The notes under the pieces were generated by a model, which had not been told where the DNA came from, made no database searches, and was given only the letters and a program-made list of their open reading frames with translations. Below are positions 5,958 through 52,359 of a DNA stretch of 64,000 nt, piece by piece. The stretch is from assembly GCA_001442925.1 (NCBI GenBank), contig LDXX01000001.1, positions 124,001 to 188,000 of the forward strand. Reading direction: 5' to 3'. Numbering within the stretch: position 1 is the stretch's first letter; each line of letters opens with the position of its first letter. Source of the DNA: Candidatus Kryptonium thompsonii. Lineage in GTDB: Bacteria; Bacteroidota; Ignavibacteria; Kryptoniales; Kryptoniaceae. The position numbers and the translations under genes were made by a program.

Positions 5958-7672
5958 TTTATAACTACCATTTTTCTTATCTCATATCCTTTTTGAGTTT
6001 GAAGCTTGTAAAGATAAATTCCGCTTGTAATCTCATCCACTTTTATATTCCCAAGATTGAACGAAACTTCATGCTTTCCTGCATTTTGAAATCCATCTAC
6101 TAAAACTGCGATCTCACGCCCAACGATGTCATAAACGGTAAGTTTAACATAAGTATCGCTGAATAGAGTATAAATTATCTTTGTTTCAGAATTAAATGGG
6201 TTGGGGAAATTGCCAATAATTTCAAAGTCTTTTTTCAAACCAACCCCAACTTTAATCTCATCCGAAAACTCAAAACTTCCATCTTTGTTAATTCGCTTAA
6301 CCCTATAAAAGTAAACTACATTGTCTTCAACATCTACATCAACAAATGTATATTTATTGAAATCAGATGCTAAGATTTGGTAAACTGGCTGGAACTGCCC
6401 ATCTTTGATTTTTCTTTCAAGGACAAACCTACTTACAAATTCAGGATCTTCCACTTCCCAACTTATATTAATTTTACCCTCTTTTAATTCCGCATTAACT
6501 TTTACCCCCGAAGAATAAATCGGTGCCGATGATGGGACGAATTTAACAGCGTTCGTTTCAATATTGCTTACATTTCCAATTACGTTTACTTCTTCATTTT
6601 CAAACTTCAGAAGGAAAAGCACATTGGTATCAACTTTAACGAAATAACGCCAGAGACGCTCCACCAACTCAGGTTTAACATTTTTGAAAAAAACAATCTC
6701 ATCAATCAATCCTTTTTCAATTTTTACACTTGGACGATTTATTTCGAACTGCGATAAATTTGGTATAAAAATCTCATCAATCTTATCACCATCGACATAA
6801 AGCTTTAAAATATCACCAGGCTGATTTGCGGTTATCACAATGCAATGCCATTCCCCATCGCTTACAAATTTTGGAAATGTTATCTCATACTTTCCAATCG
6901 AACTGTTCATTGCGACAAAAATGCTACCAAATTTTAACCCAACGCTTGCAAAACTTTTATCAAAAGTTGATTCCAAAGTAATTATCTTGCCCATCATCGA
7001 TGTTGTCTTCAGCCAGAACAAAAGTGTAAAGCCTTCCTTGCCAGTAAATTTATCGTTCAAGTTAAACTTGATAAATCCATCTTTTTCAAATTTAGCGCAT
7101 AAGCCCGCTGTTTTATCCGAATAGTTTTTAACCTTAATGTTAACTTTATGCCCTTCGGCTTCCATTGGTTCAAAAATTAAAGAATCAGAAGAAATTTTTA
7201 TAGGTAAAAAATTCAGCCTGATTTCATCGGATGATTTTGTGCTCATCACAAAAGCATAACTTCTTAGAACAGACGAATGCTTGAGCGTGTCTAAAAAGAT
7301 AAATATTTTTTGAACGGGAAAGTTTTTCTGTAAATACTCGTTTAATGCAAACGGGGGATTTGCTTTAAGGGGTTCAATATTTATAGAACTGTCCTCAAAA
7401 ATGAAAGACTCAGATAGATTAACTTCACCTTCACTCGAAGCAATGATTAAAATTGTATCTTCAGGTTCTGCGTAAACGTTTAACTTCACAGCAAATTTTT
7501 CGCCCTTTACAACTTCGTCTGGATATTGAATCAGGGAAATCTTTTGAGCGAATAGCGGGGAAATAATCAATGTCAAAATAAGAAACGAAGTCAAGAGAGC
7601 CTTAAAGTTCAAATCATTATGCATTGAATCTTTATCATCGTCCATAACGATGCAGAAAAATTTTGTTTTCAC
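5954..7672 (-). CDS. Secreted LamG-domain protein with T9SS type A sorting domain
   Basis: Predicted T9SS cargo, probably cell-surface attached. The middle (about residues 195-345) resembles a LamG/concanavalin-A-like lectin domain ([36 protein letters not shown]). A fibronectin-III-like segment follows. The last 85 residues form a sorting domain starting at [16 protein letters not shown] and ending in RKMVVIK. The open frame begins at a GTG overlapping the nuoI stop, but the hydrophobic signal peptide ([18 protein letters not shown]) starts more naturally from the ATG at 7624, which I think is the likelier start. Coupling to the following GH13 lipoprotein suggests the two act together on surface carbohydrate. 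That is inference from position. Confidence 0.85.
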
Positions 7673-13674: not shown

Positions 13675-13712
13675 CCCCTCTCTATTTATAGAGAGGGGTT
13701 GGGGGTGAGTCA
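13675..13712 (+). repeat. Hairpin repeat, unit B
   Basis: Stem CCCCTCTCTA / TAGAGAGGGG around a TTTA loop, followed by TTGGGGGTGAGTCA. The final TCA is the stop codon (read on the minus strand) of the dockerin-like T9SS gene, so the repeat abuts and includes the gene's end. Confidence 0.85.
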
Positions 13713-16700
13713 CTTCACCAACACCATCTTCTTTACACTCACAAAATCACCAGCCTCCAACCTGTAAAAATATACCCCGCTCGACAACCCATCTCCCCTG
13801 AACTCAACACTATGCCTACCTGCCCTCACCCTACCATCTACTAACACACCAACCAACCTCCCAAGAACATCATACACACAAAGCCTAACCTCTACATCCC
13901 TCGGCAAATCAAACCTTATAACTGTTGATGGATTAAAAGGATTCGGATAATTCTGATGCAAAGCAAAATCCCTCGGTATATCCTCAAACCTTATAACATA
14001 CACCCTCGAAAAAGCCTCCCTCCCAGAAACCAACGAATCCTCATCATACCCACGAAATCTTATCACCACACTATCCCCAAACTTAACCCCTCCAAACTTC
14101 ACCCTGAACAAACCTAAACCTCCCTCTTCTATACCACCAAACTTTGAATAATCAAAATAAATCACCCCACCCAAACTATCCCTATAAACAAGACCAATTC
14201 CTTCTCTTAAAACTTCAAAACTATCAACCAAACCACGATGATATACCTCAACCCCATAACTTAAAAACTTTCCCCTGAAATCAGGCTTGAAAACAAACTC
14301 TTCACCTGAAACCAAAACTGAAACATCAACGCCTTCAAAACTGAAACTCAAAACCTTAGGCAATCCCTGAATGTGCGAATAATCCCAAATCTTTGTGAAT
14401 GTGAAAACATCATAAACATCCAACTTCCCATCACCCCTAACAACAACCTGTGGCAATGAACCATCATAGGGATAAATATCCGAACCAGAATAATCAAGCT
14501 CACTCCAAGCCTTTACATAACTTCCAAGATCAAATGCATCCACCCTGTTATCCCCATTATAATCACAAAGAGCATTTACCTTCAATGAATAAGGTGAAGA
14601 ACTCTCATTCCCAACCAAGTCATAAACCTTGACATTGAAATTATAAACTGTTGAAGTCCTAAGCCCTGAAACAAAGACTGAATCTGTCACAACCTCAGAA
14701 ATCAAACTATCAGCGATGAAAACTTTATAAACAACCTTACTTATGTCAACAGCCCTATCCCAGTAGAGAACAACCTTCCCAAATAGCAAATTCTTATGCG
14801 ACTTCACTCCCCCAAACCTTGGTGAAAGATTATCAACCCCAACACTATCTATTCTAATTGAAAAATCAAAAGAGCCAAAAATAAAATCCACCCTAACCTT
14901 GACATCAGCTGACTCAAAATTAACCAAATCTTTCCTACTATCCCAATATATTGTGTCAACCCCAACCCCTACAACAGCAAAACTTGAAACCCTCGAACTC
15001 AACTTCCAACTTGAACCACCATCAATTGAATAAAAGAAACTATTTAACCTAACACTATCGCTTGCATTAAAACGACAAACAAATTTTACAATACCAGATT
15101 GAACTCGTTTATCAACATTTAACACCACAGGCACACCCTTACCATAAAGTCTAACTTCTAACGTATCATTCCAAGCCGTGCTAACAACCCTCAATAAACC
15201 ATCATAAACCCCCATTGATGTAGGCTTGAAACTTAAAACAACACTTGAACTATCTCCAGGTTTTATAACGCTTAGATATGAAATAACTCTAAAAGGCTCC
15301 GATACCTCTAAACTTATAACCCTTATCGTGTCAAAATCACCTAAATTGTAAAGCTTAAGAAACTTAACAACTGAATCACCAATAAAAACAGATCTAAAAT
15401 TTATGCTATCAACAGAACTTGATAAATATGGTGGCTTTACTCCTCCACCCCTTAATACAACCTTGTTAACTGAATCAACCTCTGAATTACTGTAAATAAA
15501 CGCAGTATCAACTCTAAAACCTGATGAAACTGGCTTAAACTTAAACTCTAAAGAAACAGAATCACCACTCCCCAAACTCAATGGCAAACTACCTAAATAA
15601 GCAAAACTACTATCACCTATCACAATATCTCTTATCCTTAATGTATCTCCACCTGCGTTTTTTACTATCACATATTCACGCCTTTCATCCCCTAAATACA
15701 CATAACTAAAATCAACTAAATTATTGCTTAAACTAATTAACGGTAAACTACTGCTGAATTTTAAAATAAAAATATCACCACCTCCTGCATTTGACCCCTG
15801 ATAATAAGCACCACCACCTGGATTATGCGTTGGAAAATCAGCCGACTCAGTGTATCCCGTCAAAAATATATTACCTGAACCATCACTAGTAATTGAAGTG
15901 CCAACATCATCACCAATTCCACCATAATAAGTAGCCCAAAGCCTTGCAAGCGGTGGATCTATTGTTAATCTACCTTTATATCCCCCCTCAACCTTAAACG
16001 ACACAAATTTACCCTCGTCAACAACATAACTTAACTTAACTTTACCCCTATCATCATAACCAACAATCTCCCCATCCTCAATCTCCCCTACTGGCGTTGA
16101 TAATCTTAATCTTTTACCATCATCACTTAACTTAATATCTGCCCACTTTACTTCAAGTTTAATTCTTGAAACATTCCCATTCTCTCTTACCTCAAACTCA
16201 TGATGCAAGACTCCATCCTCACCAATCCTCCATACCCAATCTATTCCAGGATAAACCTCCCTTATCCTCACAACCCTATAACTTGGAACAAACAAAACTC
16301 CCTCTGGACAATGTGCAAGATAATAATTTGTATATCCACTCATCGGCTCTGAATACTCTATCCTACCTTCACTTATCTTTCCATCAACAATTTCCAAATC
16401 AACCCTTGCCCATATCATTGTGTCTTGCTTAATTTCCCTCTCAAATGATGGCACCTTACTAAGTGCCCTTCCCCTCTCATGTAAGACTCTGTCAAGAAAT
16501 GTACTCTTAACATCCCTTATAACATAACTTACACCACTTCCCCTAACATACAAATCAATCCCACTATGCCTTGTAAAAAACAAAACATCATCCACCCTCT
16601 TGCCATCAAAATCTCCAACCTGACCCATATTTGGTTGAAACCCAAAAGTGTTAACCCCTCCCTTCAAATTCTCCAAACTCTGTGAGTAAATTGAAGAAAC

Positions 16701-16760
16701 AACCGCAAATAAAAGAATAAAACTTAACTTTCTCATTTTCACTTCAAGTTTTGTTTTCAT
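13710..16760 (-). CDS. Secreted SBBP/ASH-domain protein with dockerin-like module and T9SS sorting domain
   Basis: A 1016 aa predicted T9SS cargo. Domains in order: signal peptide (from M1, or from M9 at 16736, which fits better); an N-terminal domain of the kind that precedes SBBP repeats (PNMGQVGDFDGK); a single SBBP propeller repeat near 270-315 (YYGGIGDDVGTSITSDGSG); two ASH/choice-of-anchor-D-like Ig domains near 330-540 (VDFSYVYLGDERREY, INFRSVFIGDSVV); an Ig-like stretch. Then come two EF-hand-like dockerin half-repeats near 733 (DYNGDNRVDAFDL) and 785 (RGDGKLDVYDV), and a type A sorting domain from NYPNPFNPSTVIRFDL. It is more Gly/Ser/Val/Asp-rich and Lys-poor than neighbouring genes. 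It lies 35 bases after the cohesin-like lipoprotein gene and is bracketed by hairpin repeats. Its function is unknown. Confidence 0.85.
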   Translation of the reverse strand: MKTKLEVKMRKLSFILLFAVVSSIYSQSLENLKGGVNTFGFQPNMGQVGDFDGKRVDDVLFFTRHSGIDLYVRGSGVSYVIRDVKSTFLDRVLHERGRALSKVPSFEREIKQDTMIWARVDLEIVDGKISEGRIEYSEPMSGYTNYYLAHCPEGVLFVPSYRVVRIREVYPGIDWVWRIGEDGVLHHEFEVRENGNVSRIKLEVKWADIKLSDDGKRLRLSTPVGEIEDGEIVGYDDRGKVKLSYVVDEGKFVSFKVEGGYKGRLTIDPPLARLWATYYGGIGDDVGTSITSDGSGNIFLTGYTESADFPTHNPGGGAYYQGSNAGGGDIFILKFSSSLPLISLSNNLVDFSYVYLGDERREYVIVKNAGGDTLRIRDIVIGDSSFAYLGSLPLSLGSGDSVSLEFKFKPVSSGFRVDTAFIYSNSEVDSVNKVVLRGGGVKPPYLSSSVDSINFRSVFIGDSVVKFLKLYNLGDFDTIRVISLEVSEPFRVISYLSVIKPGDSSSVVLSFKPTSMGVYDGLLRVVSTAWNDTLEVRLYGKGVPVVLNVDKRVQSGIVKFVCRFNASDSVRLNSFFYSIDGGSSWKLSSRVSSFAVVGVGVDTIYWDSRKDLVNFESADVKVRVDFIFGSFDFSIRIDSVGVDNLSPRFGGVKSHKNLLFGKVVLYWDRAVDISKVVYKVFIADSLISEVVTDSVFVSGLRTSTVYNFNVKVYDLVGNESSSPYSLKVNALCDYNGDNRVDAFDLGSYVKAWSELDYSGSDIYPYDGSLPQVVVRGDGKLDVYDVFTFTKIWDYSHIQGLPKVLSFSFEGVDVSVLVSGEEFVFKPDFRGKFLSYGVEVYHRGLVDSFEVLREGIGLVYRDSLGGVIYFDYSKFGGIEEGGLGLFRVKFGGVKFGDSVVIRFRGYDEDSLVSGREAFSRVYVIRFEDIPRDFALHQNYPNPFNPSTVIRFDLPRDVEVRLCVYDVLGRLVGVLVDGRVRAGRHSVEFRGDGLSSGVYFYRLEAGDFVSVKKMVLVK

Positions 16761-31012: not shown

Positions 31013-32871
31013 ATTTTCACCTCAATTTGAACTCCAAAGATATTTCTCACAATTTCGCCAGCGGATAAAAAAGTTTCCCCATATTTCATCTGAACGGAAA
31101 GCAATTTCCCAAATTTGCATTTGAGAACAAAGTACCATCTTAACCCATCACCATAAAATGGAATTAACGAAACAATGCCATCAATATCATCCTCATAAAT
31201 ATAAATCCTTGACCAATATGAATCTGTTTTGAAAAACGCAATTCGACTGTATAAGCTTAAACTGTTAAAAACTTGATATTCCACCCCTTGATAAATCAGA
31301 AATCCTTTCTCAACCCCATTTAAATCTCGCCTCACTAACTCAACTCTACTTTTAAATGTGACTTTCCCAAACCTATTTTCAACCTCAACCCTCGCATTTT
31401 TTCTCCGCTCAATTCCCTCACCCCAAATCGCTCTCCCAAAATCATCAAAAGTTTTTATCCCTTTGACCACCGATTTCTCCCGTGCCATAACTTTAAAATC
31501 AAGATTTCTAGAGATTCTAAAACTTACCTCAACTCTATAATCAACACCATTTTTCACATCGGTATAATCAACACGCGGAAACCTGTAAACATCCCAATAA
31601 CCAGAAAATTTCAATCTCCATATCCTGAACTTAACACCAGAGTAAAAACCCTCCTCATTCCATGCCTCACCATATCTCTCACTGAAAGCATTGCCATTTA
31701 TAGATGTGAAATTCGGACTCAGTTGCCGATATAGAAAGACAAAGCTTAAATTGCCGAAATCAATTGACAAACCGGAAACATAACTCAAATGTGAAAACTT
31801 CCACAATGCAATCTCACCAAACAGATTTAAATTTCTAAAGTATAGGTCAAACATAAAACCGCTGTAAAAATTTCTCCTTTGAAAAGGTCTCGAAATTGAT
31901 GCGGAAAAATCACGATTGAAATCCTCATAAAAATTTAAAACCCCAAGTGAAAAATTTCTCGAACCAAAACTTACAATTCCACCAAACGATCTCCTTGTCA
32001 AAGGAAATTTTTGAACCGTATTTATGCCAGAGAAATCAATGTATTTCACTCTTCCACTCGTATCAATTGAAGAAGGCAAATTCGTCTTTGAGTAAAACAA
32101 GGTTAATTCAATATTTTTAAACCTTGAGCTAAACGCACCCCCGAACAAAGGTTTAACTTCATCAGTTGATGCATAGCCAAGCAAATGATTTTCAGAACTT
32201 CTAGCCGCTGGGGAGATAACATCCGAACCTTTCCCAAGCGCAACAGGGCTCCACATCAAAATTCCTTGACCGAATTTTAAAATATAACTCCCAACGACAA
32301 ACCTTCTAACAAATGAAGAACTTTTATATTCAATGAAAAAGTGGGTCAGATCATTTAATTTATTCTCCCCATAATCTTTTTCAATCACGAAACCGGCAGA
32401 AAAGTTTGAAATCCCGAAGCGAGCAAGTTGATATGTTTTAGAATTATCAGCGAAGTCATTTGCAAAATAGCGAATATTATTCCTGCTTAAAATTCGTGTC
32501 CTTGTTTGAAAGCTTAACTTTGGTCTTTGAATGTATCCGTTTCTGTAAAGAAAAGATTTTATGGACTCATCGATCCCGGGAATGTCAAAAATCTGTTCCC
32601 TTATTTTAAATCCACCAATCTTGTCACGATATTCGATGATTTTATTCGCAGTTTCCCTCGTTATAAATGGAATCGCAACCAAATCATCAACGCTTACTTT
32701 GTTAAGCTCTATCGTTACAAACTCCAATTGCTCAACTATTTCATCGACCTGCACATCAAGTTCAAGACTTTCAAAAATTTCACCTTCTATATCTGTAAGC
32801 GTGTCAACTTGAGCATCTTGAGATTTTGCAAGTGAAAGAAAAATTACAAAAATTAACGCAATCTTTTTCAT
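31009..32871 (-). CDS. Helix-hairpin-helix plus outer-membrane beta-barrel protein
   Basis: A 620 aa exported protein. After the signal peptide ([15 protein letters not shown]), residues about 50-115 form two helix-hairpin-helix motifs of the ComEA type ([39 protein letters not shown]). From about 125 to the end, alternating aromatic and hydrophobic strands (for example [20 protein letters not shown]) end with VQIEVKI, as expected for an outer-membrane barrel. HhH usually binds DNA non-specifically, so a periplasmic DNA-capture domain on a barrel is conceivable, but many FCB relatives exist without assigned function. The start overlaps the PorV-like gene by four bases. Confidence 0.75.
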
Positions 32872-33692
32872 TCTCCCCCACCAAGTTTTGCGGTCAATGT
32901 AATTTGATGCGTAAATCCAAGTAATTGATGATTGTCAACCCCATAATCAAGTTGAAATCTGGAAAGTTTTATCCCAACTCCACCTGAATAACGAACTGGA
33001 TAATTTGACAGTCCAAATCTCACAGAAACAAAGTCAACGATGTTATATTCAACACCATACCTTACACACTCCCTAAAAGTAAGTTCTTTATAAACTCCCA
33101 TTGAAACGATCAAATTGCTATACGGCATTAGAGCGATGCCCAAATCAATTTCTTTAGGCAACTTTTCCTGTGCTTTACCAATTCTACTTGAAATTAAATT
33201 TTTAACAACAAATCCAAACCTCAAAAATTTGACGGGTTTTGAAACAAAACCAAAATCACCGCTAAAAGCGCCGGCGCTTCCATAATTTTTAATCGAAATA
33301 AAAGTATAATTCAAACTTAACCCTAAATTGAAAGCATCGAAACCTTGCGCTATTGAAATCTTCAGCATATTCTCTCTATAAAGTTCAAAACCAAAAGATT
33401 TAATTCCGATGCCAAATTTAACAGGCAAAGATGGCTCATAATAAACTGCCCCCTTAATGGAAAGCTGTGTTAAGCCAAATTGAGCGGGAATATAAGAAAA
33501 AGAAATCTCCCTGCTTTTTAAATCAGCGATCCCAGCGGGATTATAAAAAACTGCCCATACATCATTTGCAACCGCAACAAAACTTTTCACAGCAAACGCC
33601 CTCGCTCCGATGCTCTCCTGAGACAAACCCCTGAACACGAAAAAGATTAGAAAAAATAAAATTCTTAACATCGAGACAACCTTTTTGTTCAA
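32868..33692 (-). CDS. PorV/PorQ-like outer-membrane protein
   Basis: A 274 aa predicted outer-membrane barrel with a signal peptide (LRILFFLIFFVFRGLSQ). The mature start GARAFAVKSFVAVANDVWAV and the following FYNPAGIADL are the family hallmark shared by PorV/PorQ and FadL-like proteins. PorV shuttles T9SS cargo; PorQ-type paralogues have other roles, so this one is not assigned more precisely. It is translationally coupled to the downstream HhH/barrel gene by a four-base overlap and six bases after a TauE-like permease gene. M1 or M8 could be the start. Confidence 0.75.
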   Translation of the reverse strand: MNKKVVSMLRILFFLIFFVFRGLSQESIGARAFAVKSFVAVANDVWAVFYNPAGIADLKSREISFSYIPAQFGLTQLSIKGAVYYEPSLPVKFGIGIKSFGFELYRENMLKISIAQGFDAFNLGLSLNYTFISIKNYGSAGAFSGDFGFVSKPVKFLRFGFVVKNLISSRIGKAQEKLPKEIDLGIALMPYSNLIVSMGVYKELTFRECVRYGVEYNIVDFVSVRFGLSNYPVRYSGGVGIKLSRFQLDYGVDNHQLLGFTHQITLTAKLGGGE

Positions 33693-42721: not shown

Positions 42722-42751
42722 AAAACAAAAAGCGGGGCTAAGCGCCCCGCC
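42722..42751 (-). terminator. Rho-independent terminator after the PorV-like gene
   Basis: Perfect 7-bp stem GCGGGGC / GCCCCGC with a five-base loop, followed on the minus strand by TTTTTGTTTTA. It closes the DUF4397-TonB-T9SS-PorV operon. Confidence 0.9.
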
Positions 42752-42758
42752 AGTTAAA

Positions 42759-43781
42759 TTAAAATCCAACTTTAAGATTGAATAGATGGTTTGCGGTAAA
42801 ATATGTCACAGGAACATAAGCATAATCAAATGTCACCTTTAACCCAATTAATGCCTCTGTATTTATACCAGCCCCAAGCGTATAATGATGCCATATCGAT
42901 GAAATATCACCTGTTTTGCTATAGTTGTATCCAGCCCTTACAAAGAATATGTTTCTAAAAGAATATTCAAATCCAAATTTATACGCATCAATCGCATAAA
43001 AATTATTTGCTTGATAGGTTCCAGTCAAAAAGAAGTTGTTAATCTCACCGATTGAATAACTGTATCCAAGCCCTATTTCAAAAGAAGTGGGCATTGGGAA
43101 AGATGCAGCCTCAACTTTGTAAAATGTGACGCCTCTTTCAGATCCAGGCACCTGTGCTTGAACCCAAAGTCCCGAACCGCCGTATTTCATCGTCGGACCT
43201 ATGTTCTTTACAACAACACCAAGTTGAAGTCCCGGGATGTTTAACATATTTCTATACTGAACACCCGCATCAAACGCAAAACCATTTGCGCTAACTCTAC
43301 CAAATGATTCACTTACAAAGTTAAAATTAGCACCAACCGAAACACGGTCCGATAGCTTTTTTGAATATGTCACACCGACAACGAAAAAGTTCGGACTTAT
43401 TATTTCACCTGTTCCGTCAGGATGAAATTCAGTCGTGACAGGTATATCTCCGAGATCAAAGCTTCTCAAGGATAATCCAACCGAACCAAATCCAAATTTG
43501 CCAACCAAAGCAAGATAATTTACTCCTATATCAGCGATATATTTACGATATGAAAATATCGCCTGACCATTTCCAACCAACCAATCAACCCCGCTTGGAT
43601 TCCAAGTTATCGCTTCAACTCCATCAGCCAATACACCAGATGCACCACCCATTGCGGTATATCTTGCACCAATTGGTATGGTAAGCTCAGGCGCAGCAGA
43701 TGTCCCAGCCTTTGACTGTGAAAAGGCTTGGATCGAACCCAAGAGAATTACCAAGGCTATTATTAAATAATTTTTTCTCAT
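42759..43781 (-). CDS. PorV/PorQ family outer-membrane protein
   Basis: A 340 aa outer-membrane barrel with a signal peptide (IIALVILLGSIQAFSQ) and the family's mature N-terminus: GARYTAMGGASGVLADGVEA then TWNPSGVDWL. The C-terminus ends in Phe (NHLFNLKVGF), as outer-membrane barrels do. It is the last gene of the four-gene surface operon; PorV proteins hand T9SS cargo to the attachment machinery, and a T9SS-type cargo gene lies directly upstream. Dedicated service to that cargo is inference. Confidence 0.82.
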   Translation of the reverse strand: MRKNYLIIALVILLGSIQAFSQSKAGTSAAPELTIPIGARYTAMGGASGVLADGVEAITWNPSGVDWLVGNGQAIFSYRKYIADIGVNYLALVGKFGFGSVGLSLRSFDLGDIPVTTEFHPDGTGEIISPNFFVVGVTYSKKLSDRVSVGANFNFVSESFGRVSANGFAFDAGVQYRNMLNIPGLQLGVVVKNIGPTMKYGGSGLWVQAQVPGSERGVTFYKVEAASFPMPTSFEIGLGYSYSIGEINNFFLTGTYQANNFYAIDAYKFGFEYSFRNIFFVRAGYNYSKTGDISSIWHHYTLGAGINTEALIGLKVTFDYAYVPVTYFTANHLFNLKVGF

Positions 43782-43810
43782 AGTTCAAACTCCACTTTTT
43801 TATTTTTTAA

Positions 43811-43836
43811 AGAACCGCCCCGAAGGGCGGCTGTTC
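43811..43836 (-). terminator. Intercistronic hairpin between the T9SS gene and the PorV-like gene
   Basis: Stem CCGCCC / GGGCGG around CGAA, extended by AGAAC / GTTCT. Read on the minus strand it is followed only by TTT then A-rich sequence, so it is a weak terminator or a transcript-stabilising hairpin rather than a full stop. Confidence 0.6.
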
Positions 43837-43840
43837 TGAA

Positions 43841-46800
43841 TTAGTAAGTTGGAATAATCTCTTCCTCCTGAACAATCAGCAGTTTCAAAATCTTCGTTGC
43901 CCCAATTTCTGGCATATCAATATGAACGATGTAAACTCCGCTCGCAACAGGAAGATTATGCTCATTCCTTAAATTCCACCTCGCAAATTGAGAATCATCA
44001 TCTTTATTGATTGTTTTAACAAGAACACCAGCAAGATTAAATATTCTTATCGTCGCTTTCTTGGGTAAATGATTAAAGGTTATGTATTTTATCAATCTAT
44101 CCGTCTCCATCAAGTTGAATCCATAATATGGATTTGGAAAAGCATTGATCTTCTCAACATCTTGACGAGCAAGTTGAACATCACCGACTGTCGGAGCCTG
44201 CGTTGCGAATGTAAATGTATCAGCAGGTGTATTGACACGATTTGGATAAAGTTGTATTGTAACATCAGCGCTATAAGGATCACGAGTTCCCCTTTGATAT
44301 AGCCACAAAGCCCACAAAACAGGATAAGCGCTATGATTGGGACCACTGGTCATAAACCCTGTACCCTGAGCTGGATCCCATGCTTTACCAGTCGGGTCAT
44401 AATCGCTATCTAAAACCCAAATGTACTCATATGGTGTGACCGCATCATTGGCATCCGATATATCCCATTGTTTATTTCCATTCCTATCACGAACAACAAC
44501 ATTTAGCTGCCTGGGTGAATTTGGATTTTCAATATCAAATACTTTGAAAGGTACATCATAAAATCCTTCATACGTAGCATTACTCCATGTCTGATACATA
44601 AATGCCTTCTGGGACTTCGCTGGGTCAACTGTATAGGGTTCTCCAAGATCGTATTGACCATTTCCATTTTGATCTGTAAAACCTGTTCTCGCTGAAAATC
44701 TAATTTCAACCGACTTAAAATCACCCGGTGCTAAACTACTTCCAGTGAAGTTTGGACCAAGAAATACACCACCGAACAACAATTCTCCACCATTTGCCGG
44801 ATTACCTGTAAACCATCTATTCGCCGCACCTTGTGTAGCAACCCATTCCTTACCTGCAAGTGGCGGTCCCATAACTTTAACAAAGACACCATCAACTATT
44901 GGATAGGCTTCATCCCCGGATTGATTTGATCCAGTTGCCTTGACTTTATTCTCATTAATATCAACAATATACCAATTACCCTCATTATCAAATCTTACTT
45001 GATATGTATGTCCAGTTGCAATTGACGGATCAACAAGAATTGCAACCACTTCCCCATCACTTCTGCCTTTATGAACCACAGTTAATGTATCACCAACAGC
45101 TCCATAATATCTCGTCCCTGGCGGCGGTGACTGAGGTGTAACAGCTAGAACAACCGGCGTGCTTTCAAGCGCTCTGAATGGAGCGAGAGGATCGGGATTA
45201 TAAGCATATGCTGTAACAGCGTAGTAATATGTTTGACCATTTACAAGAGGACGCTGGCGGACATAATCAGTTGTTAAGGTAATGTAATGGCGAATTCCAC
45301 TATTACTACCTGTTTGAACTGGGACCTGAAGCAAAGCACCGGTTTTTGGATCTATAGTTCTATCAAGTATTACCGTTACCTCGTTAACAACATCATATGT
45401 CGCAATTTTTATAGCCTCACTTAAGCTAGAAGTTGGCGATGGTAATTGATAAACATTGTAACCCTCAAAAATAAATCCAGCTGAATTATAATTTTCAATT
45501 GCATTGACGCTCGCCTGGTTCCACCCCCAATTCAAAACAACTTGACGATCTAATGCAGCCACTTTGACATCAGGAGAAGGAGGTGGAGACGGCAAAACAA
45601 AGAGATTATCATACGCAAATTGTGCATATATATCGTAATATTTCAGAACCAAAATACTTGAAAGATTATCAACACCCATCGCTCCTATTAAAGCTACGAC
45701 TATTTCCGCCGTATCTGGCTTACCATCCGTTAACTTTAACTGAAATGGACCAGTTACATTCACTATTCGCCTATCCCCAGGTGGAATTTCTCTACCATCA
45801 ATCCAGCCAGTTTTTGTCACTGGATCACCCGCAACTGCATATTTTGTAGGATAAACATTAGGGTCTCTCGTAAAAGCGCTCCAGAACGGAACAAAGGATG
45901 GATACTCAGGTCTTGGCAATCCACCTCTCATTAGGTTAAACCATTGAGGTGCATTAGTCGGGTCACTTATACCTGTTCCAGCAGCAAAGAAGACAAAGGT
46001 TGTAAGCGGATTTTCATTCCAATATTTATATCCTTTCCTCCATTCCAAACCAATCACAGCAGAGTCATTGGGATTTCCAGTATAACGGGCTGGACCCTGC
46101 AAAAAGTCAAATCCAACAGCTGGAGCAGGTAATCCTATAGATTGATATTCATGGTCAACAGTATTAGCATTATAAACATATCCTAACCCCAAAACAGAGT
46201 CACATCCTGCAAGGTCATCAGAATAATCTCCAAGATCTGGATCTGCCCATTTCACTATGTAAACACTGTCAATCTTTGAATCAGGCTTAGCTGCAGCTGT
46301 TCCTTTATAAATAATCCTGATCTGTTGGAATATAATGTTATTTAAAGGATTGGAAACAGAATAAGCCCATTCTGTAAGTTGTAATTCAAGTCCAATTGGT
46401 GGCGACCCAAAAACTTGTATACCAACATCCGATGCTAAGTCATTTGCAACAGCCCATACAGTTTGAGTTGCTCCAGGGATACCGGGAACATGATTTGGAT
46501 TATTTGGATCAAAACCGGGACCATATTTTACCTTATAGGCATCAGGTCCAGTAGTTGTATACCATGGAGCTCCTTTATCAGCAGGCCAATCTTTCCAATC
46601 ATTTTCATATTGTTGACGAAGTGCCTCTTCATCAGCTGATGTGACATCTTTGAGAGGTTTCATAAAGTATTCAGCAGCATCTGCTTTTAAATCCGCCGTC
46701 CTATAATCTGGACGAACGCGCCATACTCTCTTAACAGCAGGGTCATCACGATTTTCAGCAGTTCCTTTAGTTATAATTCTACCTGGCACCATACTTGTCC

Positions 46801-47143
46801 TATAAAATACTCCCTGTGCACGAAGTGTCGGGGATCCTCCATCATCAACAAGTCCCCCAATCATCAATCCTTCTCTGTAAATCATTCCTACTCCACTGCC
46901 CCTTGGAAATGTTCCATTCCAAGAGTTTTTGATTAACGGTGGCCATCCAAGACCACCTGGCGATGAAACGACAGATACCCAGCTTGTTATGTTATTCACA
47001 TCGACAATCGTTGATGTAACACCAGCAGCGGTTGATTTGCCAAAGAAGAATTCTTCGCTTCTCTTTTTCAATGGATCTTCCCTTCCAATTGCTAAACTGA
47101 ATATTACAAAAGTTAATATTAGCAAAATTGAAAATTTCCTCAT
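43841..47143 (-). CDS. Large secreted protein with T9SS-type C-terminal domain
   Basis: A 1100 aa exported protein, signal peptide ILLILTFVIFSLAIG. The N-terminal 500 residues are unassigned. Near 540-680 there is a fibronectin-III-like segment (VVLNWGWNQAS, NGQTYYYAVTAYAYNP). Two EF-hand-like loops are visible (DQNGNGQYDLGEPYTVD, VVRDRNGNKQWDISDANDA). The last 85 residues form a FlgD/T9SS-type sorting domain (NAFPNPYYGFNLMETDRL, ATIRIFNLAGVLVKTI, ASGVYIVHID). It lies between the TonB-dependent receptor gene (41 bases) and the PorV-like gene. I infer a surface-exposed partner of the receptor. Its ligand is unknown. Confidence 0.8.
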   Translation of the reverse strand: MRKFSILLILTFVIFSLAIGREDPLKKRSEEFFFGKSTAAGVTSTIVDVNNITSWVSVVSSPGGLGWPPLIKNSWNGTFPRGSGVGMIYREGLMIGGLVDDGGSPTLRAQGVFYRTSMVPGRIITKGTAENRDDPAVKRVWRVRPDYRTADLKADAAEYFMKPLKDVTSADEEALRQQYENDWKDWPADKGAPWYTTTGPDAYKVKYGPGFDPNNPNHVPGIPGATQTVWAVANDLASDVGIQVFGSPPIGLELQLTEWAYSVSNPLNNIIFQQIRIIYKGTAAAKPDSKIDSVYIVKWADPDLGDYSDDLAGCDSVLGLGYVYNANTVDHEYQSIGLPAPAVGFDFLQGPARYTGNPNDSAVIGLEWRKGYKYWNENPLTTFVFFAAGTGISDPTNAPQWFNLMRGGLPRPEYPSFVPFWSAFTRDPNVYPTKYAVAGDPVTKTGWIDGREIPPGDRRIVNVTGPFQLKLTDGKPDTAEIVVALIGAMGVDNLSSILVLKYYDIYAQFAYDNLFVLPSPPPSPDVKVAALDRQVVLNWGWNQASVNAIENYNSAGFIFEGYNVYQLPSPTSSLSEAIKIATYDVVNEVTVILDRTIDPKTGALLQVPVQTGSNSGIRHYITLTTDYVRQRPLVNGQTYYYAVTAYAYNPDPLAPFRALESTPVVLAVTPQSPPPGTRYYGAVGDTLTVVHKGRSDGEVVAILVDPSIATGHTYQVRFDNEGNWYIVDINENKVKATGSNQSGDEAYPIVDGVFVKVMGPPLAGKEWVATQGAANRWFTGNPANGGELLFGGVFLGPNFTGSSLAPGDFKSVEIRFSARTGFTDQNGNGQYDLGEPYTVDPAKSQKAFMYQTWSNATYEGFYDVPFKVFDIENPNSPRQLNVVVRDRNGNKQWDISDANDAVTPYEYIWVLDSDYDPTGKAWDPAQGTGFMTSGPNHSAYPVLWALWLYQRGTRDPYSADVTIQLYPNRVNTPADTFTFATQAPTVGDVQLARQDVEKINAFPNPYYGFNLMETDRLIKYITFNHLPKKATIRIFNLAGVLVKTINKDDDSQFARWNLRNEHNLPVASGVYIVHIDMPEIGATKILKLLIVQEEEIIPTY

Positions 47144-47184
47144 AGTTTTAAACCTCCTAATTATTTTTATTTTTGCAAGTTATT

Positions 47185-50100
47185 TCACAATTCAACTCTT
47201 ACTCCAGCTCTTAATTGTCTCGGGGAGCCAAAAAGGTCTTGCAATACTCCATTAAATCGCCACTGATGTTGTCTGTTCTCAAGATTAATTGCTTTGTAAA
47301 GCTCAACATACATAGGCCCGAACTGGTTAACAAAAGTCCCACTTAAGTCAGGATTGGTTAAAAAGCCATCGTCGTAAGCATTTCCAGTTCTATAATAGAC
47401 ATTTATCACATTCTTGGTGTTGAATAAATTCTGAACATAAACATAGAAATTAAAGTTTACTGGACCAATCGAGATCGTTTTGTCAACCCTTAGGTCAACA
47501 TTCCATACCCATGGTGTCCGTGATGCATTTATAGGTTCAAGAGGGGTTCTATTTCTTGGATCTCCATCATTAAGTATTCCACCATCGTCAGCATCTTGCT
47601 GAGCTATTCCGCCAGTGGCAAGAGTATATGGATGCCCACTATTAAATGTTATCAACAGATTAACACCAAATCTTTCAAACAACGGACCACCTTCACCCTT
47701 TCCAAAGCGATAATCAATATTTATCGTTCCTCTGTGCGTCTGATTATATGAAAGTGGAACGGTTAATGTCGGAGTTATCTGCGTAATTCCAACCGCTGCC
47801 CAAGCACCATTTGCAAAAGAATTCGTTCCACGAGCATCCTGCAAGGTATAATTAATTTGCGCTTGAATCCTGTTAACTCTCCTGATTCTTAATGTAAATT
47901 CAAGTCCATATACATTCTCAAAATCACCGTTCGTGTAAACAGCATATTTTAATCCAGCATAAGGTCCACTTGTTATAGGAACAGTGGAAACTTGGAGCTG
48001 ATTTCTAACATCTTTGTAAAATCCAGTTATATCAAAAGCGGCGAAATCGGTAAACTGTTGCGAAAATCCAATTTCATATTGGGTCGTTTTAACAGGATCC
48101 GGGTCAAATGCCAAAGGATCAGGTATCAATTCAATCGATGGTAAGTAAACACTGCCCGGGTAATAAGATAAACCTGCGTAAAGTGATGTCAAAGCCGGTG
48201 GCTGAACAAAAATTCCATACTGTAAGTGGAACACGGTTCTATCTGTCACAGGGAATGAAAAACCTAACCTCGGCTGCAAATAAGCCCTTGGCTTCCCTTT
48301 TTCGAGATCAAGAAGCTTTCTAGTTGTTAAATCAGCCCTTGGTGCATTTGGATCTTTCAACCTCCAAGCATCAAGATACAAGTAATCATATCTTAATCCA
48401 GCATTTATAATTAAATCGCTGAACTCAATTTTATCCTGGATATATGCCGAGAAGAAATATGGATGTCTTGGTCCATCTTCGCCAGAATCAACCTTTCTAC
48501 CAAACCTATCAAATCCATAGTTATTCACATAACTTCCAAGCAACTTATATAGATAACTCTCACTTCTCGCGGAATCAGGTAATGTATGAAAAGCTCTAAA
48601 CAATCCACCAGTTCCAATACCATAATGTCTAACTGTCCATCTTTGATAACTTGCTCCGAGTTTTATTTCATGTTTCTCAACTTGGGAAGTTAAAGCAACA
48701 TTACCACCCCAATAACCCTGTTGGAACTTGCTGTACCCAGCAAATAAAGTTCCAGGCCTATAAAATGCAAATCCATAAAAATCATATGGCGGTGGACCAA
48801 CATACCTACTCACGTACTTAAAACGTTCTCCATATGCACGAACCACTTGAAGACTATCATCATAAGCTAAAACATTGTCGCCAAATGCCGGTTCGTAGGA
48901 CTTATTTCTGTAATCAAGGAAGCTTATGGAAGCCTCTAAAAATGTCTTCGCAGAAATGAAATAAGTTCCCTTTGCACTAATGAAAAATTGAGTTAAATCT
49001 GTAACTGGCAATCTCTCAAGATTAAATATATTTCTCAAGAAGTCATTGCCCCTTGAGCGACTCCAAGTATAAGCTCCTGAAATTCTCAATTGAAGAGGTT
49101 TTAAATCAAATGTAAGCGTTCCATTCCCAGTATATCTATTTACCATCCTCCCTGGTATATTTGCATCGTTCCATGCAACAAGAGCTGAATCACCTTTGGT
49201 TCCTCCTCTTCTTCCATTATCCTTCAAATATCCAAAGTTGTAACCTTTGAAAAAGTGCTGTATATAATCTCTGATAAAGTTGTTTTCACCAGCCAGGAAA
49301 AACTTAATTCTCTCTGTAAACAATGGGCCACCCAAGGTAACTACTATATCAGAATATCCGTAAGAATAAGTTCCAAGGAATTTCTTCCCAGGATAGTTTC
49401 CAAAATTGTCAGTTTCAAATTGAACGGATGTAGAAAACTTTGACCTCCCGCTCTTAAAGACTTGTTGAACTATTCCAGCATTTGCACCTCCAAATTCAGC
49501 ACTATATCCTCCAGCTTGAACTGAAATTTCCTCGAGAGCTTCTGGGATAGTTGTTATAAGACCTCCACCTAAAGCTCTATACCTATCCCTTGCCGCAAAT
49601 GCTCCACCTCTTGCACCTGTAGCTGCACCAAGTATATTAGTTACACTTGCCCCCTCGATCATATAACCAACTTCATCTGATCTACTACCTCTGATGTATA
49701 ATCTTCCATATTGTAAACTTACACCAGCTTGAAGCGCAAAATACACGTTTACATCTCTAACTGGTAATTTCTCAACATCTGCAGATGTAACAACACGAAT
49801 AGCATTCGTAGCAGATTTCTCAATTAGAGGCCTTTCAGCAACAACTTCAACCGCTCTCAATTCTATCGCGGTGGACGGCAATTCAAAATTTAACTCTCTT
49901 GTCAAACCTGCAATAACCTGAACACCCGAAACCGTTACCGTTTGGTAACCAACATAAGACGCCACAACTGTGTATGTTCCAGCAGGGACATTTAAGATCA
50001 CGTAGTTTCCATTTACATCAGTTGCAGCACCGAGCGTTGTCCCTTGAACCACAACTGAAGCCCCAGGAAGCGGCTCCTTTGTTTCTCTATCAACGACCCT

Positions 50101-50190
50101 ACCTGATATTTTGCCATATTGAGCAAATACCAGCTGAACAGAAATTAACAACAATAAAACCGAGATTAAAAATTTAACTTTGTTTTTCAT
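47185..50190 (-). CDS. TonB-dependent receptor
   Basis: A 1001 aa outer-membrane active transporter. After the signal peptide comes a carboxypeptidase-regulatory-like domain (about 25-105: ISGRVVDRETKEPLPGASVV, NGNYVILNVPAGTYTV), then a plug domain (about 115-235, with VYFALQAGVSLQYGRLYIRG and GGYSAEFGGANAGIV) and a 22-strand-type barrel ending in QLRAGVRVEL. This layout is the SusC/Bacteroidetes form, but there is no SusD beside it; instead a DUF4397 lipoprotein precedes it and a T9SS cargo follows. The substrate cannot be told from sequence. Confidence 0.92.
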   Translation of the reverse strand: MKNKVKFLISVLLLLISVQLVFAQYGKISGRVVDRETKEPLPGASVVVQGTTLGAATDVNGNYVILNVPAGTYTVVASYVGYQTVTVSGVQVIAGLTRELNFELPSTAIELRAVEVVAERPLIEKSATNAIRVVTSADVEKLPVRDVNVYFALQAGVSLQYGRLYIRGSRSDEVGYMIEGASVTNILGAATGARGGAFAARDRYRALGGGLITTIPEALEEISVQAGGYSAEFGGANAGIVQQVFKSGRSKFSTSVQFETDNFGNYPGKKFLGTYSYGYSDIVVTLGGPLFTERIKFFLAGENNFIRDYIQHFFKGYNFGYLKDNGRRGGTKGDSALVAWNDANIPGRMVNRYTGNGTLTFDLKPLQLRISGAYTWSRSRGNDFLRNIFNLERLPVTDLTQFFISAKGTYFISAKTFLEASISFLDYRNKSYEPAFGDNVLAYDDSLQVVRAYGERFKYVSRYVGPPPYDFYGFAFYRPGTLFAGYSKFQQGYWGGNVALTSQVEKHEIKLGASYQRWTVRHYGIGTGGLFRAFHTLPDSARSESYLYKLLGSYVNNYGFDRFGRKVDSGEDGPRHPYFFSAYIQDKIEFSDLIINAGLRYDYLYLDAWRLKDPNAPRADLTTRKLLDLEKGKPRAYLQPRLGFSFPVTDRTVFHLQYGIFVQPPALTSLYAGLSYYPGSVYLPSIELIPDPLAFDPDPVKTTQYEIGFSQQFTDFAAFDITGFYKDVRNQLQVSTVPITSGPYAGLKYAVYTNGDFENVYGLEFTLRIRRVNRIQAQINYTLQDARGTNSFANGAWAAVGITQITPTLTVPLSYNQTHRGTINIDYRFGKGEGGPLFERFGVNLLITFNSGHPYTLATGGIAQQDADDGGILNDGDPRNRTPLEPINASRTPWVWNVDLRVDKTISIGPVNFNFYVYVQNLFNTKNVINVYYRTGNAYDDGFLTNPDLSGTFVNQFGPMYVELYKAINLENRQHQWRFNGVLQDLFGSPRQLRAGVRVEL

Positions 50191-50205
50191 GGGCTAACCC
50201 TCCTT

Positions 50206-50874
50206 TTAATCTTCTTTGAAAAGCTTTTTTTGTAAATTTGCTTTTAAACCATATACAACAACAGAATATCTACCAGCCCCTGATATTCCAGAATCCCACG
50301 CTTTAACAAGTGTATCAGTTCCAGATATAACTGTATATTTTACAGGGAAAGATGCAATCGTAAGATATGGCGTTCCCCCTTTGAAAGCAACATTAGAGAA
50401 AGTTGAATCCTTTCCAGCAAAATTAACAATAACTTTCGCAGCACCTAAGTTAGGGCTAAGATTTAAAAACCTAACAAGCGCTTTACCACTCGGATACGGT
50501 TCGTCAAATGTATTACGTTCCGCAGCAAATAAAACACTATCAGACCCCCTCCCAACATAAAAAACAGAGTATTTTTTCTCCGATTCAAGCGATCTTTTTA
50601 TCGTATCCCCAGCCGTAAAAACAAAAACCCTTGACCCAGCTGGTAAATCAAGATAATTTGAAGCATCTCCAAAGGCAATAGAACTCACCTTGTCAGAACC
50701 ATCAACATTAACCTTAATTGTCACATCAGGCTTCAAATTTACAAATTTTGCAAGGGAACGATAATCAACGGGTTGAACTACTGGGTTATCAATATTAATA
50801 CACCCATCCCCCGTGATTACAATTATGAAAAAAACCAAGAAAAAAACTGCAAAGATAGTAAATTTACTTTGCAT
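50206..50874 (-). CDS. DUF4397-domain lipoprotein
   Basis: A 222 aa predicted lipoprotein: long hydrophobic signal (IFAVFFLVFFIIVITG) then GDGC, a relaxed lipobox with Cys25. The rest holds two similar beta-sandwich halves (KFVNLKPDVTIKVNVDG and VRFLNLSPNLGAAKVIVNFAG), the internal symmetry of DUF4397. Function of the family is unknown; members are exported. It is the first gene of the surface operon, 16 bases ahead of the TonB-dependent receptor gene, and lies where a SusD-type binding lipoprotein would in other systems. Confidence 0.82.
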   Translation of the reverse strand: MQSKFTIFAVFFLVFFIIVITGDGCINIDNPVVQPVDYRSLAKFVNLKPDVTIKVNVDGSDKVSSIAFGDASNYLDLPAGSRVFVFTAGDTIKRSLESEKKYSVFYVGRGSDSVLFAAERNTFDEPYPSGKALVRFLNLSPNLGAAKVIVNFAGKDSTFSNVAFKGGTPYLTIASFPVKYTVISGTDTLVKAWDSGISGAGRYSVVVYGLKANLQKKLFKED

Positions 50875-51021
50875 AAGAACCTCCGCTTTAAAATTTTAAT
50901 AAATCAATGAACAAAATAAACAACCGCCTATGAACAGGAAATGAAAAATTTTATTTATTGGAAGGAAGTGCTTTTTAAAAGCTAATAATTAAGCTTTTAA
51001 AATCTGACGTGCTTTTTAATA

Positions 51022-51050
51022 AATTTAATACAGAAATTTTATTTTGTCAA
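51022..51050 (-). promoter_or_regulatory. Predicted surface-operon promoter, proximal copy
   Basis: Minus strand: TTGACA (51045-51050), 17 bases, TAAATT (51022-51027). The leader to the DUF4397 gene is about 140 bases. Confidence 0.65.
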
Positions 51051-51101
51051 GAGTTTTTAGCTTCCGTAGAAGCGAACATTAAATTTCATATTTTCAATAC
51101 G

Positions 51102-51130
51102 AATTTAATATGAAAAATTTATTTTGTCAA
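51102..51130 (-). promoter_or_regulatory. Predicted surface-operon promoter, distal copy
   Basis: Minus strand: TTGACA (51125-51130), 17 bases, TAAATT (51102-51107). Same hexamers and spacing as the proximal copy, displaced by exactly 80 bases. Confidence 0.65.
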
Positions 51131-51177
51131 GGGGTTTTTAAAATTTTTAGGACAAATTTAAAAAATAAGCCCTCGGG

Positions 51178-51206
51178 TTGACTTTCGATCCCACCAGAGT
51201 TATGAA
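51178..51206 (+). promoter_or_regulatory. Predicted apbC promoter
   Basis: TTGACT (51178-51183), 17 bases, TATGAA (51201-51206), about 65 bases before the apbC ATG. Confidence 0.5.
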
Positions 51207-51276
51207 ACTTTTTTCATCCAAACATTTTTATTAAGTTTAGGTTGTAAACTCTAAAAACAAAAATAAAATTTTAACA

Positions 51277-52359
51277 ATGAAAAGCATCGAAGAAATAACT
51301 AAAGTCCTCAGAGAAATTCAAGATCCAGATTTGCATAGAGATATTGTTTCACTTGGATTTGTTAAAGATATTCAAGTTGATTCGAAAAAGGCATATATTA
51401 AAATCGAGCTCACAACGCCAGCGTGTCCTGTGAGAGATAAGATAAAAGATGAAGCGATAGAAAAAGTTAAAAAGCTTGGATTCGAAGAAGTCACTGTTGA
51501 AATGACAGCACAAGTTCCGAAGCATCTGAGCCCACAAAAAGATGCGCTCCTTCCAAATGTTAAAAATACAATCGCCGTCGCAAGTGGGAAAGGTGGCGTT
51601 GGTAAATCAACCGTCGCAGTTAATCTCGCGGTTGCCCTCGCACTTGAAGGCGCCAAAGTTGGTTTAATAGATGCAGATGTTTATGGTCCGAATGTGCCGA
51701 TCATGTTAGGTGTAAACGAAAAACCAACATTGGCTCCAGATGGCAAAAAGATTGAACCTGTTGAAAAATACGGTGTTAAGTTAATTTCAATCGGTTTGCT
51801 ACTTGATGATCCAGATACTGCTTTAATCTGGCGTGGACCTATAGCAAGTGGTGCGATAAAACAATTTATGACGGATGTTGAATGGGGTGAGATTGATTAT
51901 CTTATTTTTGACCTTCCCCCAGGCACAGGTGATATACAATTAACACTCGTTCAAACAATACCTTTAACAGGCGCGGTGATAGTTACAACCCCACAAGATG
52001 TAGCACTTGCGGATGTAAGAAAAGCTATAAAAATGTTTCAAAAGGTCAATGTTCCCATACTTGGCATAGTTGAAAATATGAGCTATTTTATCTGCCCAAA
52101 CTGTGGACACAGAGACGATATATTCGATCACGGTGGCGGTAAAAAAGCAAGTGAAAAATTTAATGTCCCGTTCCTAGGTGAAATACCAATTAACACAAGG
52201 ATAAGAATAAGTGGAGATCTCGGTAAACCAATTCCAGTTTCTTATCCCGATTCAGAAGAAGCTAAAATCATAAGAGAGATCGCTCAAAAACTTGCCGCAA
52301 GAGTTAGCATCGTGAGTTTTAAACAACAAGCAATGCCAAAGGTCGAAATTAAATTATGA
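51277..52359 (+). CDS. apbC: Mrp/ApbC-type iron-sulfur cluster carrier ATPase
   Basis: P-loop ATPase that carries and delivers [4Fe-4S] clusters. The 360 aa protein has an N-terminal MIP18/DUF59 domain (about 1-80, LREIQDPDLHRDIVSLGFV and TTPACPVRD), a deviant Walker A GKGGVGKST near residue 105, and the cluster-bridging CPNC near 271. A short tail follows the usual end. The ATGA overlap with the next gene, which encodes a NifU C-terminal domain, makes a compact Fe-S delivery pair. Confidence 0.94.
   Translation: MKSIEEITKVLREIQDPDLHRDIVSLGFVKDIQVDSKKAYIKIELTTPACPVRDKIKDEAIEKVKKLGFEEVTVEMTAQVPKHLSPQKDALLPNVKNTIAVASGKGGVGKSTVAVNLAVALALEGAKVGLIDADVYGPNVPIMLGVNEKPTLAPDGKKIEPVEKYGVKLISIGLLLDDPDTALIWRGPIASGAIKQFMTDVEWGEIDYLIFDLPPGTGDIQLTLVQTIPLTGAVIVTTPQDVALADVRKAIKMFQKVNVPILGIVENMSYFICPNCGHRDDIFDHGGGKKASEKFNVPFLGEIPINTRIRISGDLGKPIPVSYPDSEEAKIIREIAQKLAARVSIVSFKQQAMPKVEIKL

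Follow-up and report, generated by a model that had tools for sequence, protein, structure and literature searches.

The genome of Candidatus Kryptonium thompsonii carries a gene module that we judge, with a fair degree of belief, to be a TonB-dependent uptake system in which a surface protein exported by the type IX secretion system (T9SS) takes the place of SusD and is held by a PorV-family barrel of its own. The module lies in a 64-kb stretch (the window; all module coordinates are window positions) of this 2.59-Mb draft genome (G000), where four co-oriented, minus-strand open reading frames (ORFs) form an operon-like group between 42722 and 51130. Its conserved core comprises three genes, encoding a TonB-dependent receptor (TBDR; 47185..50190), a T9SS cargo of about 1100 residues (43841..47143) and a PorV-like barrel (42759..43781). 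A lipoprotein with a DUF4397 domain is encoded upstream. The module looks like an undescribed alternative to the Sus nutrient-uptake system. No description of a TBDR/T9SS-cargo/PorV-like locus was found in the titles and abstract beginnings searched, which covered few subscription journals and are weak evidence of absence.

The triad of receptor, cargo and PorV recurs within the genome and well beyond it. The genome encodes six complete triads (the window module and those of C11, C6, C2, C5 and C1) and two partial modules, a C5 receptor with a PorV and a C12 PorV at a contig end. Altogether, 84 distinct triads were gathered from Kryptonia, Ignavibacteria, KSB1, Marinimicrobia, Latescibacterota, Zixibacteria and other groups. 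The full triad is present in 29 of 40 regions fetched from relatives, 37 of which were picked by a cargo match and three (L148, L165, L166) by a DUF4397 match. Some match to the cargo was found in all 41 genomes searched (this one and 40 relatives), many of the weak matches listed being restricted to the tail. We also scanned named genomes by cargo similarity and kept the best 80 loci, not all of which are full triads. Based on record titles, these come from Kryptonia, Ignavibacteria, Melioribacter, KSB1, Marinimicrobia, Latescibacterota, Calditrichota, Zixibacteriota, GN15, Eisenbacteria and Cloacimonadota, among others. They contain 92 cargo ORFs of at least 500 residues, 81 with room for a preceding gene and 82 for a following one. 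A TBDR gene lies immediately 5' of 56 of the 81 and a PorV-like gene immediately 3' of 59 of the 82, against a background of 7.4% receptors and 7.2% PorV-like genes among the 930 ORFs of those loci, a background inflated by the modules themselves. A reading of the window made from its letters alone (the sequence-only reading) had described four linked genes in a Sus-like order, and would have counted a lack of linkage in relatives against it. The comparison of gene order across genomes finds the genes still linked there; the minus-strand ORFs are as it described, and a TBDR is indeed followed by a large partner.

Within this genome the three components have diverged together. Based on tree distances among the six modules, the correlation between receptor and cargo is 0.88 (p = 0.0012), between receptor and PorV 0.75 (p = 0.0036), and between cargo and PorV 0.62 (p = 0.0024), in a permutation test for which only 720 distinct permutations exist. 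Species history cannot produce such a signal inside one genome. Across all 88 triads r is 0.82–0.85, a value that includes species history.

The barrel (340 residues) is proposed to be a dedicated shuttle and permanent anchor of the cargo. It is assigned to the PorV/PorQ family (NF033709, 175.3 bits against a cut-off of 90) and falls below the equivalog cut-offs of both PorV (NF033710, 87.4 of 250 bits) and PorQ (NF033711, 79.2 of 220 bits); PorV 6h3i_F is a solved relative (E = 4.7e-6). Elsewhere the genome encodes a canonical PorV, beside PorU (257.3 bits against 250), and a canonical PorQ (257.3 bits against 220). In a tree of 102 PorV-family proteins, the 88 module PorVs and five from truncated or partial modules form a single clade with support of 0.999, and nine non-module proteins, including the canonical PorV and PorQ, fall outside it. 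We thus rejected the idea that the module protein is the general PorV of the genome; as the sequence-only reading had supposed, it looks dedicated to the module.

PorV-family genes and T9SS tails are numerous in the genome, which has 55 matches to type A tails and 20 to the PorV family, 12 of them above the cut-off. Outside the module, the window itself encodes two more T9SS-tailed proteins and a distant PorV-family protein that lies outside the module clade (5954-7672, 13710-16760 and 32868-33692). At L061, L062 and L063, PorV-family genes from outside that clade are found directly 3' of a gene for a protein with a T9SS C-terminal domain (CTD), with no receptor. Cognate pairs of CTD proteins and PorV-family barrels may extend more widely than this module.

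The tail of the cargo resembles that of PorZ. Residues 987-1092 (43868..44185, minus strand) form a PorZ-type CTD that aligns with PorZ 5m11 over 94 residues at 2.0 Å (VIA-align, Z = 12.1). The PorZ model NF052228 matches the last 130 residues with E = 6e-11; over the whole cargo it scores 35.8 of 260 bits, from the tail only and below the equivalog cut-off. TIGR04183 (type A) marginally exceeds its cut-off of 23 bits in two scans (23.3 and 28.1 bits), and PF18962 remains below its own (15.8 against 27). The window tail matches the PorZ and TIGR04183 models only and not the type B model TIGR04131, which is also absent from the six families matched by any of the 84 module tails (E 1e-4). At this threshold the PorZ model matches 78 of the 84 module tails. 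Among the other T9SS-type tails of the fetched loci it matches 11 of 56, and these had been collected by means of a profile built up from the window tail itself, which works against the contrast. The type A model matches 54 of these 56 tails.

Published work reports that the tail of PorU remains bound to PorV and that of PorZ to PorQ, suggests that cognate PorV-like barrels shield tails from cleavage (PMC10202324), and describes the PorZ tail as not cleaved by PorU (PMC8545088). The module is in keeping with this suggestion of tail protection, and on a large scale.

One relative (G002) encodes a cargo that seems to be a mosaic (L131:5849-9268), compared here with the C11-type paralogue (L058:11446-14652) and the window cargo. 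Over columns 1090-1510 of alignment A1 it is 83-86% identical to the former and 32-34% to the latter, whereas in the N-terminal domain (N-domain) and the tail it shares 91-96% identity with the window cargo. From the sequences, this single case seems to reflect a swap of one middle domain between paralogues with the cargo's own tail retained. In another relative, a C11-type cargo is broken into two ORFs between the receptor and PorV genes (L161:4026-7230, genome G006).

These results bear on the best-surviving alternative, that this is a conventional uptake operon whose ordinary type A cargo travels by way of the canonical PorV, is cleaved by PorU and becomes linked to lipopolysaccharide (LPS), the PorV-like protein serving as a FadL-like side channel for hydrophobic ligands. 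PorV is counted among FadL-type barrels (PMC9143113), the genome possesses a canonical PorV and PorU, and the ordinary type A model still matches 61 of the 84 module tails. However, the module PorV gene lies directly 3' of the cargo gene at most loci and co-diverges with it, the module tails resemble that of PorZ, as most other tails of the same loci do not, and in the one mosaic cargo a middle domain is exchanged yet the tail is its own. We regard this alternative as unlikely.

A predicted structure of the cargo points to carbohydrate. In an AlphaFold2 model built from 61 sequences (mean predicted local distance difference test score, pLDDT, 86.6), residues of about 35-517 (45593..47041, minus strand) resemble the beta-sandwich parts of carbohydrate-active enzymes based on VIA-align. 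The best matches are to dextran dextrinase 9ju0 (Z = 19.5, 259 residues, 3.2 Å), glucodextranase 1ug9 (Z = 18.4, 234 residues, 3.0 Å) and glucoamylase 1lf6 (Z = 18.1, 231 residues, 3.0 Å), followed by sugar phosphorylases and TxGH116. We take the matched parts to be the non-catalytic super-sandwich domains of these enzymes, which are labelled GH15 and GH94. No helical barrel follows the N-domain in the model. On this prediction the N-domain seems to be a barrel-less relative of the super-sandwich of carbohydrate enzymes, and it plausibly binds glycan. A motif, DPDLG...DD...GCD...LGYVYN, is conserved in it (alignments A1 and A3). The fold assignments rest on VIA-align of residues 35-596 and the tail, residues of about 600-985 being barely tested, and not on the whole-chain list of Foldseek, which is headed by PorZ 5m11 (E = 2.1e-9, TM 0.09/0.12) and continues with mostly multi-domain immunoglobulin-like (Ig-like) and FN3 proteins. 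A profile of the cargo gave only chance-level matches among PDB sequences (best E = 0.19); fold comparison alone helped.

The neighbours of two sister modules are consistent with sugar uptake. The C5 module runs in the order LacI regulator, CTD protein, TBDR, cargo, PorV, CTD protein and solute-binding protein, continuing with two permease-like ORFs (identified by eye) and then a protein whose match to GH65-C is below the cut-off. In the C2 module a LacI-type regulator precedes the receptor, and PorV is followed by a CTD protein in which two stretches are of the starch-binding type CBM20. Behind the C12 PorV lie genes for a BadF/BadG-type ATPase and a GH3 enzyme. Next to the C6 module, on its downstream side, an M14 carboxypeptidase-domain protein is encoded, and the modules may therefore have different ligands. 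The window module is flanked by an Mrp-like ATPase on one side and a dihydrolipoamide dehydrogenase on the other, both named by eye. The nutrient-uptake character suggested by the sequence-only reading is thus supported by the genes for sugar utilization that adjoin the C5 and C2 modules; neighbours of this kind are absent from the window module.

A module for a surface layer, adhesion or envelope assembly, with a structural cargo and a receptor that acts as a platform for signalling or assembly and not as a nutrient importer, is somewhat less probable again than a conventional operon. The cargo is large and multi-domain, cargo-like genes form stand-alone arrays at some loci, several from KSB1, and the window copy sits among what appear by eye to be housekeeping genes. 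This alternative has to contend with a TonB-dependent receptor that is constant and with sister modules that adjoin genes for LacI, an ATP-binding cassette (ABC) sugar transporter and starch binding. That cargo and barrel are instead an attachment machinery like PorZ and PorQ, binding LPS or glycan and modifying other T9SS cargo while the receptor has an unrelated role, would agree with the PorZ-type tail and with the reported binding of A-LPS by PorZ (PMC8545088), but we consider it very improbable given that only the tail (model residues 987-1092) aligns with PorZ in VIA and that one genome has six complete copies, each accompanied by a receptor of its own, which is not what a general attachment complex would look like.

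TonB-dependent receptors are a family of TonB-gated importers. The receptor of the module (1001 residues) comprises a CarboxypepD_reg-like N-terminal domain (PF13715, E = 4.7e-24), a TonB plug (PF07715, E = 1.9e-7) and a barrel. Against the SusC/RagA model TIGR04056 it scores 76.7 of the 368.25 bits of the cut-off, from residues 27-148 only. Module receptors separate, with support of 0.995, from receptors of the same genome that lie beside SusD-family genes (L067), and the larger group that holds them also includes receptors without a cargo neighbour.

The genome also encodes the T9SS translocon, with SprA at 997.7 bits against a cut-off of 200 and PorU at 1018.8 against 420. In a sample of 198 genomes from across the phylum, 57 have the cargo N-domain (E 1e-6) and 154 have SprA. 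All 57 genomes with the N-domain have SprA, and the domain occurs in none of the 44 SprA-negative genomes. The two genome lists were compared by hand, and the chance value of the association is 10^-7.5 if relatedness is ignored.

The lipoprotein (50206..50874, minus strand; 222 residues) has a signal segment, a cysteine at position 25 that is invariant in a 16-sequence alignment (A2), and two tandem Ig-like domains. It matches DUF4397 with 65.6 bits (PF14344, E = 7.6e-18; gathering threshold 30.6). In a model based on six sequences (pLDDT 81.5), both domains are covered by a match to the extracellular domain of PepT2 (5a9i; Z = 16.9, 176 residues, 2.6 Å), whereas fold matches other than PepT begin at Z = 11.0 and cover one domain only. 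A profile of the 16 sequences also finds the extracellular domain of PepT1 (5a9d, E = 4.6e-5), and by profile and fold the lipoprotein and the mammalian PepT1/PepT2 domain look related. The mammalian domain is reported to bind trypsin beside the peptide transporter (PMC4597091), and by analogy it is possible that the lipoprotein brings a ligand or a hydrolase to the receptor. It shares with the PepT domain the arrangement of two tandem Ig-like domains, on a predicted model, and a place beside a transporter. It differs in being a separate bacterial lipoprotein, and protease binding is a property reported for the PepT domain. The papers found that name DUF4397 deal with other subjects, judged by titles and abstract beginnings.

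The sequence-only reading had placed this lipoprotein in the position of SusD, a proposal that we rejected. A DUF4397 gene lies 5' of the receptor in only 18 of the 73 distinct triads with room for one; six of these are in the genus of the window, and the others are spread over a few further groups. The lipoprotein is a lineage-specific accessory, and the constant partner of the receptor is the T9SS cargo.

What the sequences show is a conserved triad whose parts evolved together, with a PorV lineage of its own and PorZ-type cargo tails. We infer a sequence of events that involves secretion of the cargo, retention of its tail, anchoring, a physical complex with the receptor, and import of a ligand. 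The receptor would insert in the outer membrane as a plugged, TonB-driven gate. The cargo would pass through the SprA channel and be taken by its CTD by the co-encoded PorV-like barrel rather than by the general PorV. The barrel would then keep the CTD uncleaved, as PorQ does with PorZ. So anchored, the cargo, a proposed surface lid or substrate-binding partner, would set its super-sandwich over or beside the receptor and capture a ligand, probably a glycan, which the receptor would import. In the lineage of the window, the lipoprotein with its tandem Ig-like domains would have been added as an accessory.

Several observations weigh against an uptake module of this kind. No TBDR adjoins 25 of the 81 cargo genes and no PorV adjoins 23 of the 82, and stand-alone arrays of cargo-like genes exist, for example at the KSB1 loci L170, L179 and L212. 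Block duplication of linked genes, without a functional tie, would also yield co-divergence, so that the correlations describe a unit of inheritance and not contact. Among seven complete-module PorVs scored, the PorQ model is higher in five and the PorV model in two, including that of the window; with preferences split in this way, the module barrel is not simply a PorQ. The type A matches to module tails count here as well. The super-sandwich is a predicted fold and no proof of binding, and surface exposure of the lipoprotein is putative. PorZ is an attachment factor that binds A-LPS, and a PorZ-like tail need not imply nutrient uptake. Relatedness confounds the contrast in SprA: among the SprA-negative genomes listed (20 of 44), 19 belong to one family. 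Finally, the window module has no catabolic neighbours, and its locus gives no pointer to the ligand.

A broader claim, that a SusD-independent class of TonB-dependent nutrient receptor exists across the FCB superphylum, whose lid is a T9SS-exported, barrel-less relative of a domain of carbohydrate enzymes permanently held by a cognate PorV-family barrel, is more tentative, and we would place it slightly on the doubtful side of even. If it is true, PorV shuttling here is one barrel to one cargo, contrary to the rule of one PorV for all type A tails. One class of receptors would unite TonB-dependent uptake and type IX secretion, which are treated as separate, and would do so in phyla known largely through metagenomes. 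It is reported that type A tails are all recognized by PorV and that specialized shuttles serve type B tails (PMC12618676). The cargo-PorV family suggests that specialized shuttles of the PorV type exist too, and the cognate pairing of shuttle and cargo printed for type B tails would reach PorV-family barrels and type A-like tails. This would provide one answer to how PorZ-like tails avoid cleavage, and a role for the large 'T9SS sorting domain' proteins of the cargo family and the extra 'PorV/PorQ family' genes that adjoin them.

Transcription signals frame the operon. Taken alone, scans of the window for promoters (47 matches against 35.8, sd 5.7, in shuffles) and terminators (11 against 9.6, sd 2.9) are near chance, and because of this the support for both rests on conservation. 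The promoter TTGACA-N17-TA(T/A)ATT (TATTATATT-like -10) is found upstream in all seven loci examined, namely the window, five further DUF4397-bearing loci of its genus and the C11 paralogue. In the window it is present twice as TTGACA-17-TAAATT on the minus strand, at 51102..51130 (from the motif scan and comparison with relatives) and at 51022..51050, the latter being the one to which the single promoter found in relatives aligns. Doubling recurs in one of the six other loci (G002), and the duplicated promoter is thus not the conserved trait that it could be taken for from the window. The end terminator proposed by the sequence-only reading is confirmed by an 8-pair stem with 7 GC pairs and a T tail (42751-42731, that is 42731..42751 on the minus strand), and hairpins also lie past porV in the relatives folded. 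No Rfam RNA element was detected at E 1 in the long 5' leader (50600-51400).

Between the cargo and porV-like genes the window has a hairpin with a UUCG loop and no clear T-run (43809..43836, minus strand; -15.9 kcal/mol). Including this one, hairpins are present in 11 of 13 cargo-porV gaps examined, with variable stem sequences and mostly without a clear T-run, although that of C11 has a short one; the two gaps that lack a hairpin belong to paralogues in this genome and are short. The internal hairpin noted in the sequence-only reading therefore stands for the window and for most of these gaps. As a general feature of the module, distant members included, it was rejected, the 90 nt past the cargo stop folding more stably than those past the TBDR stop in 54 of 88 triads. 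One reading, which does not extend across distant modules, is that processing at the hairpin leaves less porV message than cargo message.

Other genes near the module vary. An ORF of 525-534 residues lies upstream of the C11 copy and at several relatives; that of C11 (L058:17806-19389) is a D-3-phosphoglycerate dehydrogenase based on Pfam, those at L193 and L229 are similar by eye, and those of other relatives (L132, L133, L134 and others) resemble it in length only. Directly 3' of the module PorV are a GWxTD-domain protein (L189:14587-15966) and a protein of the PIG-L deacetylase family (L196:14609-16963), with ORFs like these following, by eye, at some other loci. Rows of cargo-like proteins without receptor or PorV neighbours occur at L170, L179, L202, L209 and L212, four of these five loci being from KSB1.

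The module can be compared with three known systems. Like SusCD and RagAB, it is an operon of a TBDR with a CarboxypepD_reg N-terminal domain and a large partner, and two sister copies lie near LacI-type, sugar transport or starch-binding genes. Unlike SusCD, it has no SusD family among the four window proteins, although SusD-family proteins occur beside other receptors of the genome (L067); its receptor is far under the SusC cut-off; and its partner ends in a T9SS tail, with a PorV-family barrel of its own encoded next. Lacking the two tested features of SusCD, the SusC/RagA score and SusD, it may still work like SusCD, and by analogy that reading stands. With the pairs of type B CTD proteins and SprF or PorP barrels, such as SprB-SprF, as these are described in PMC12618676 and PMC9143113, it shares a cargo gene followed by the gene for its own FadL-type barrel, which would collect and anchor the cargo. 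In contrast to these pairs, the module tail is PorZ/type A-like and not type B, the barrel is of the PorV/PorQ and not the PorP/SprF family, and a TBDR belongs to the unit. With the PorZ-PorQ pair, the predicted likeness is that a PorZ-type tail is retained and serves a PorV-family barrel as the hold on a surface protein. The module differs from that pair in that the alignment is confined to the tail, with a score below the PorZ equivalog cut-off, and in that several copies occur per genome while the genome retains its canonical PorQ.

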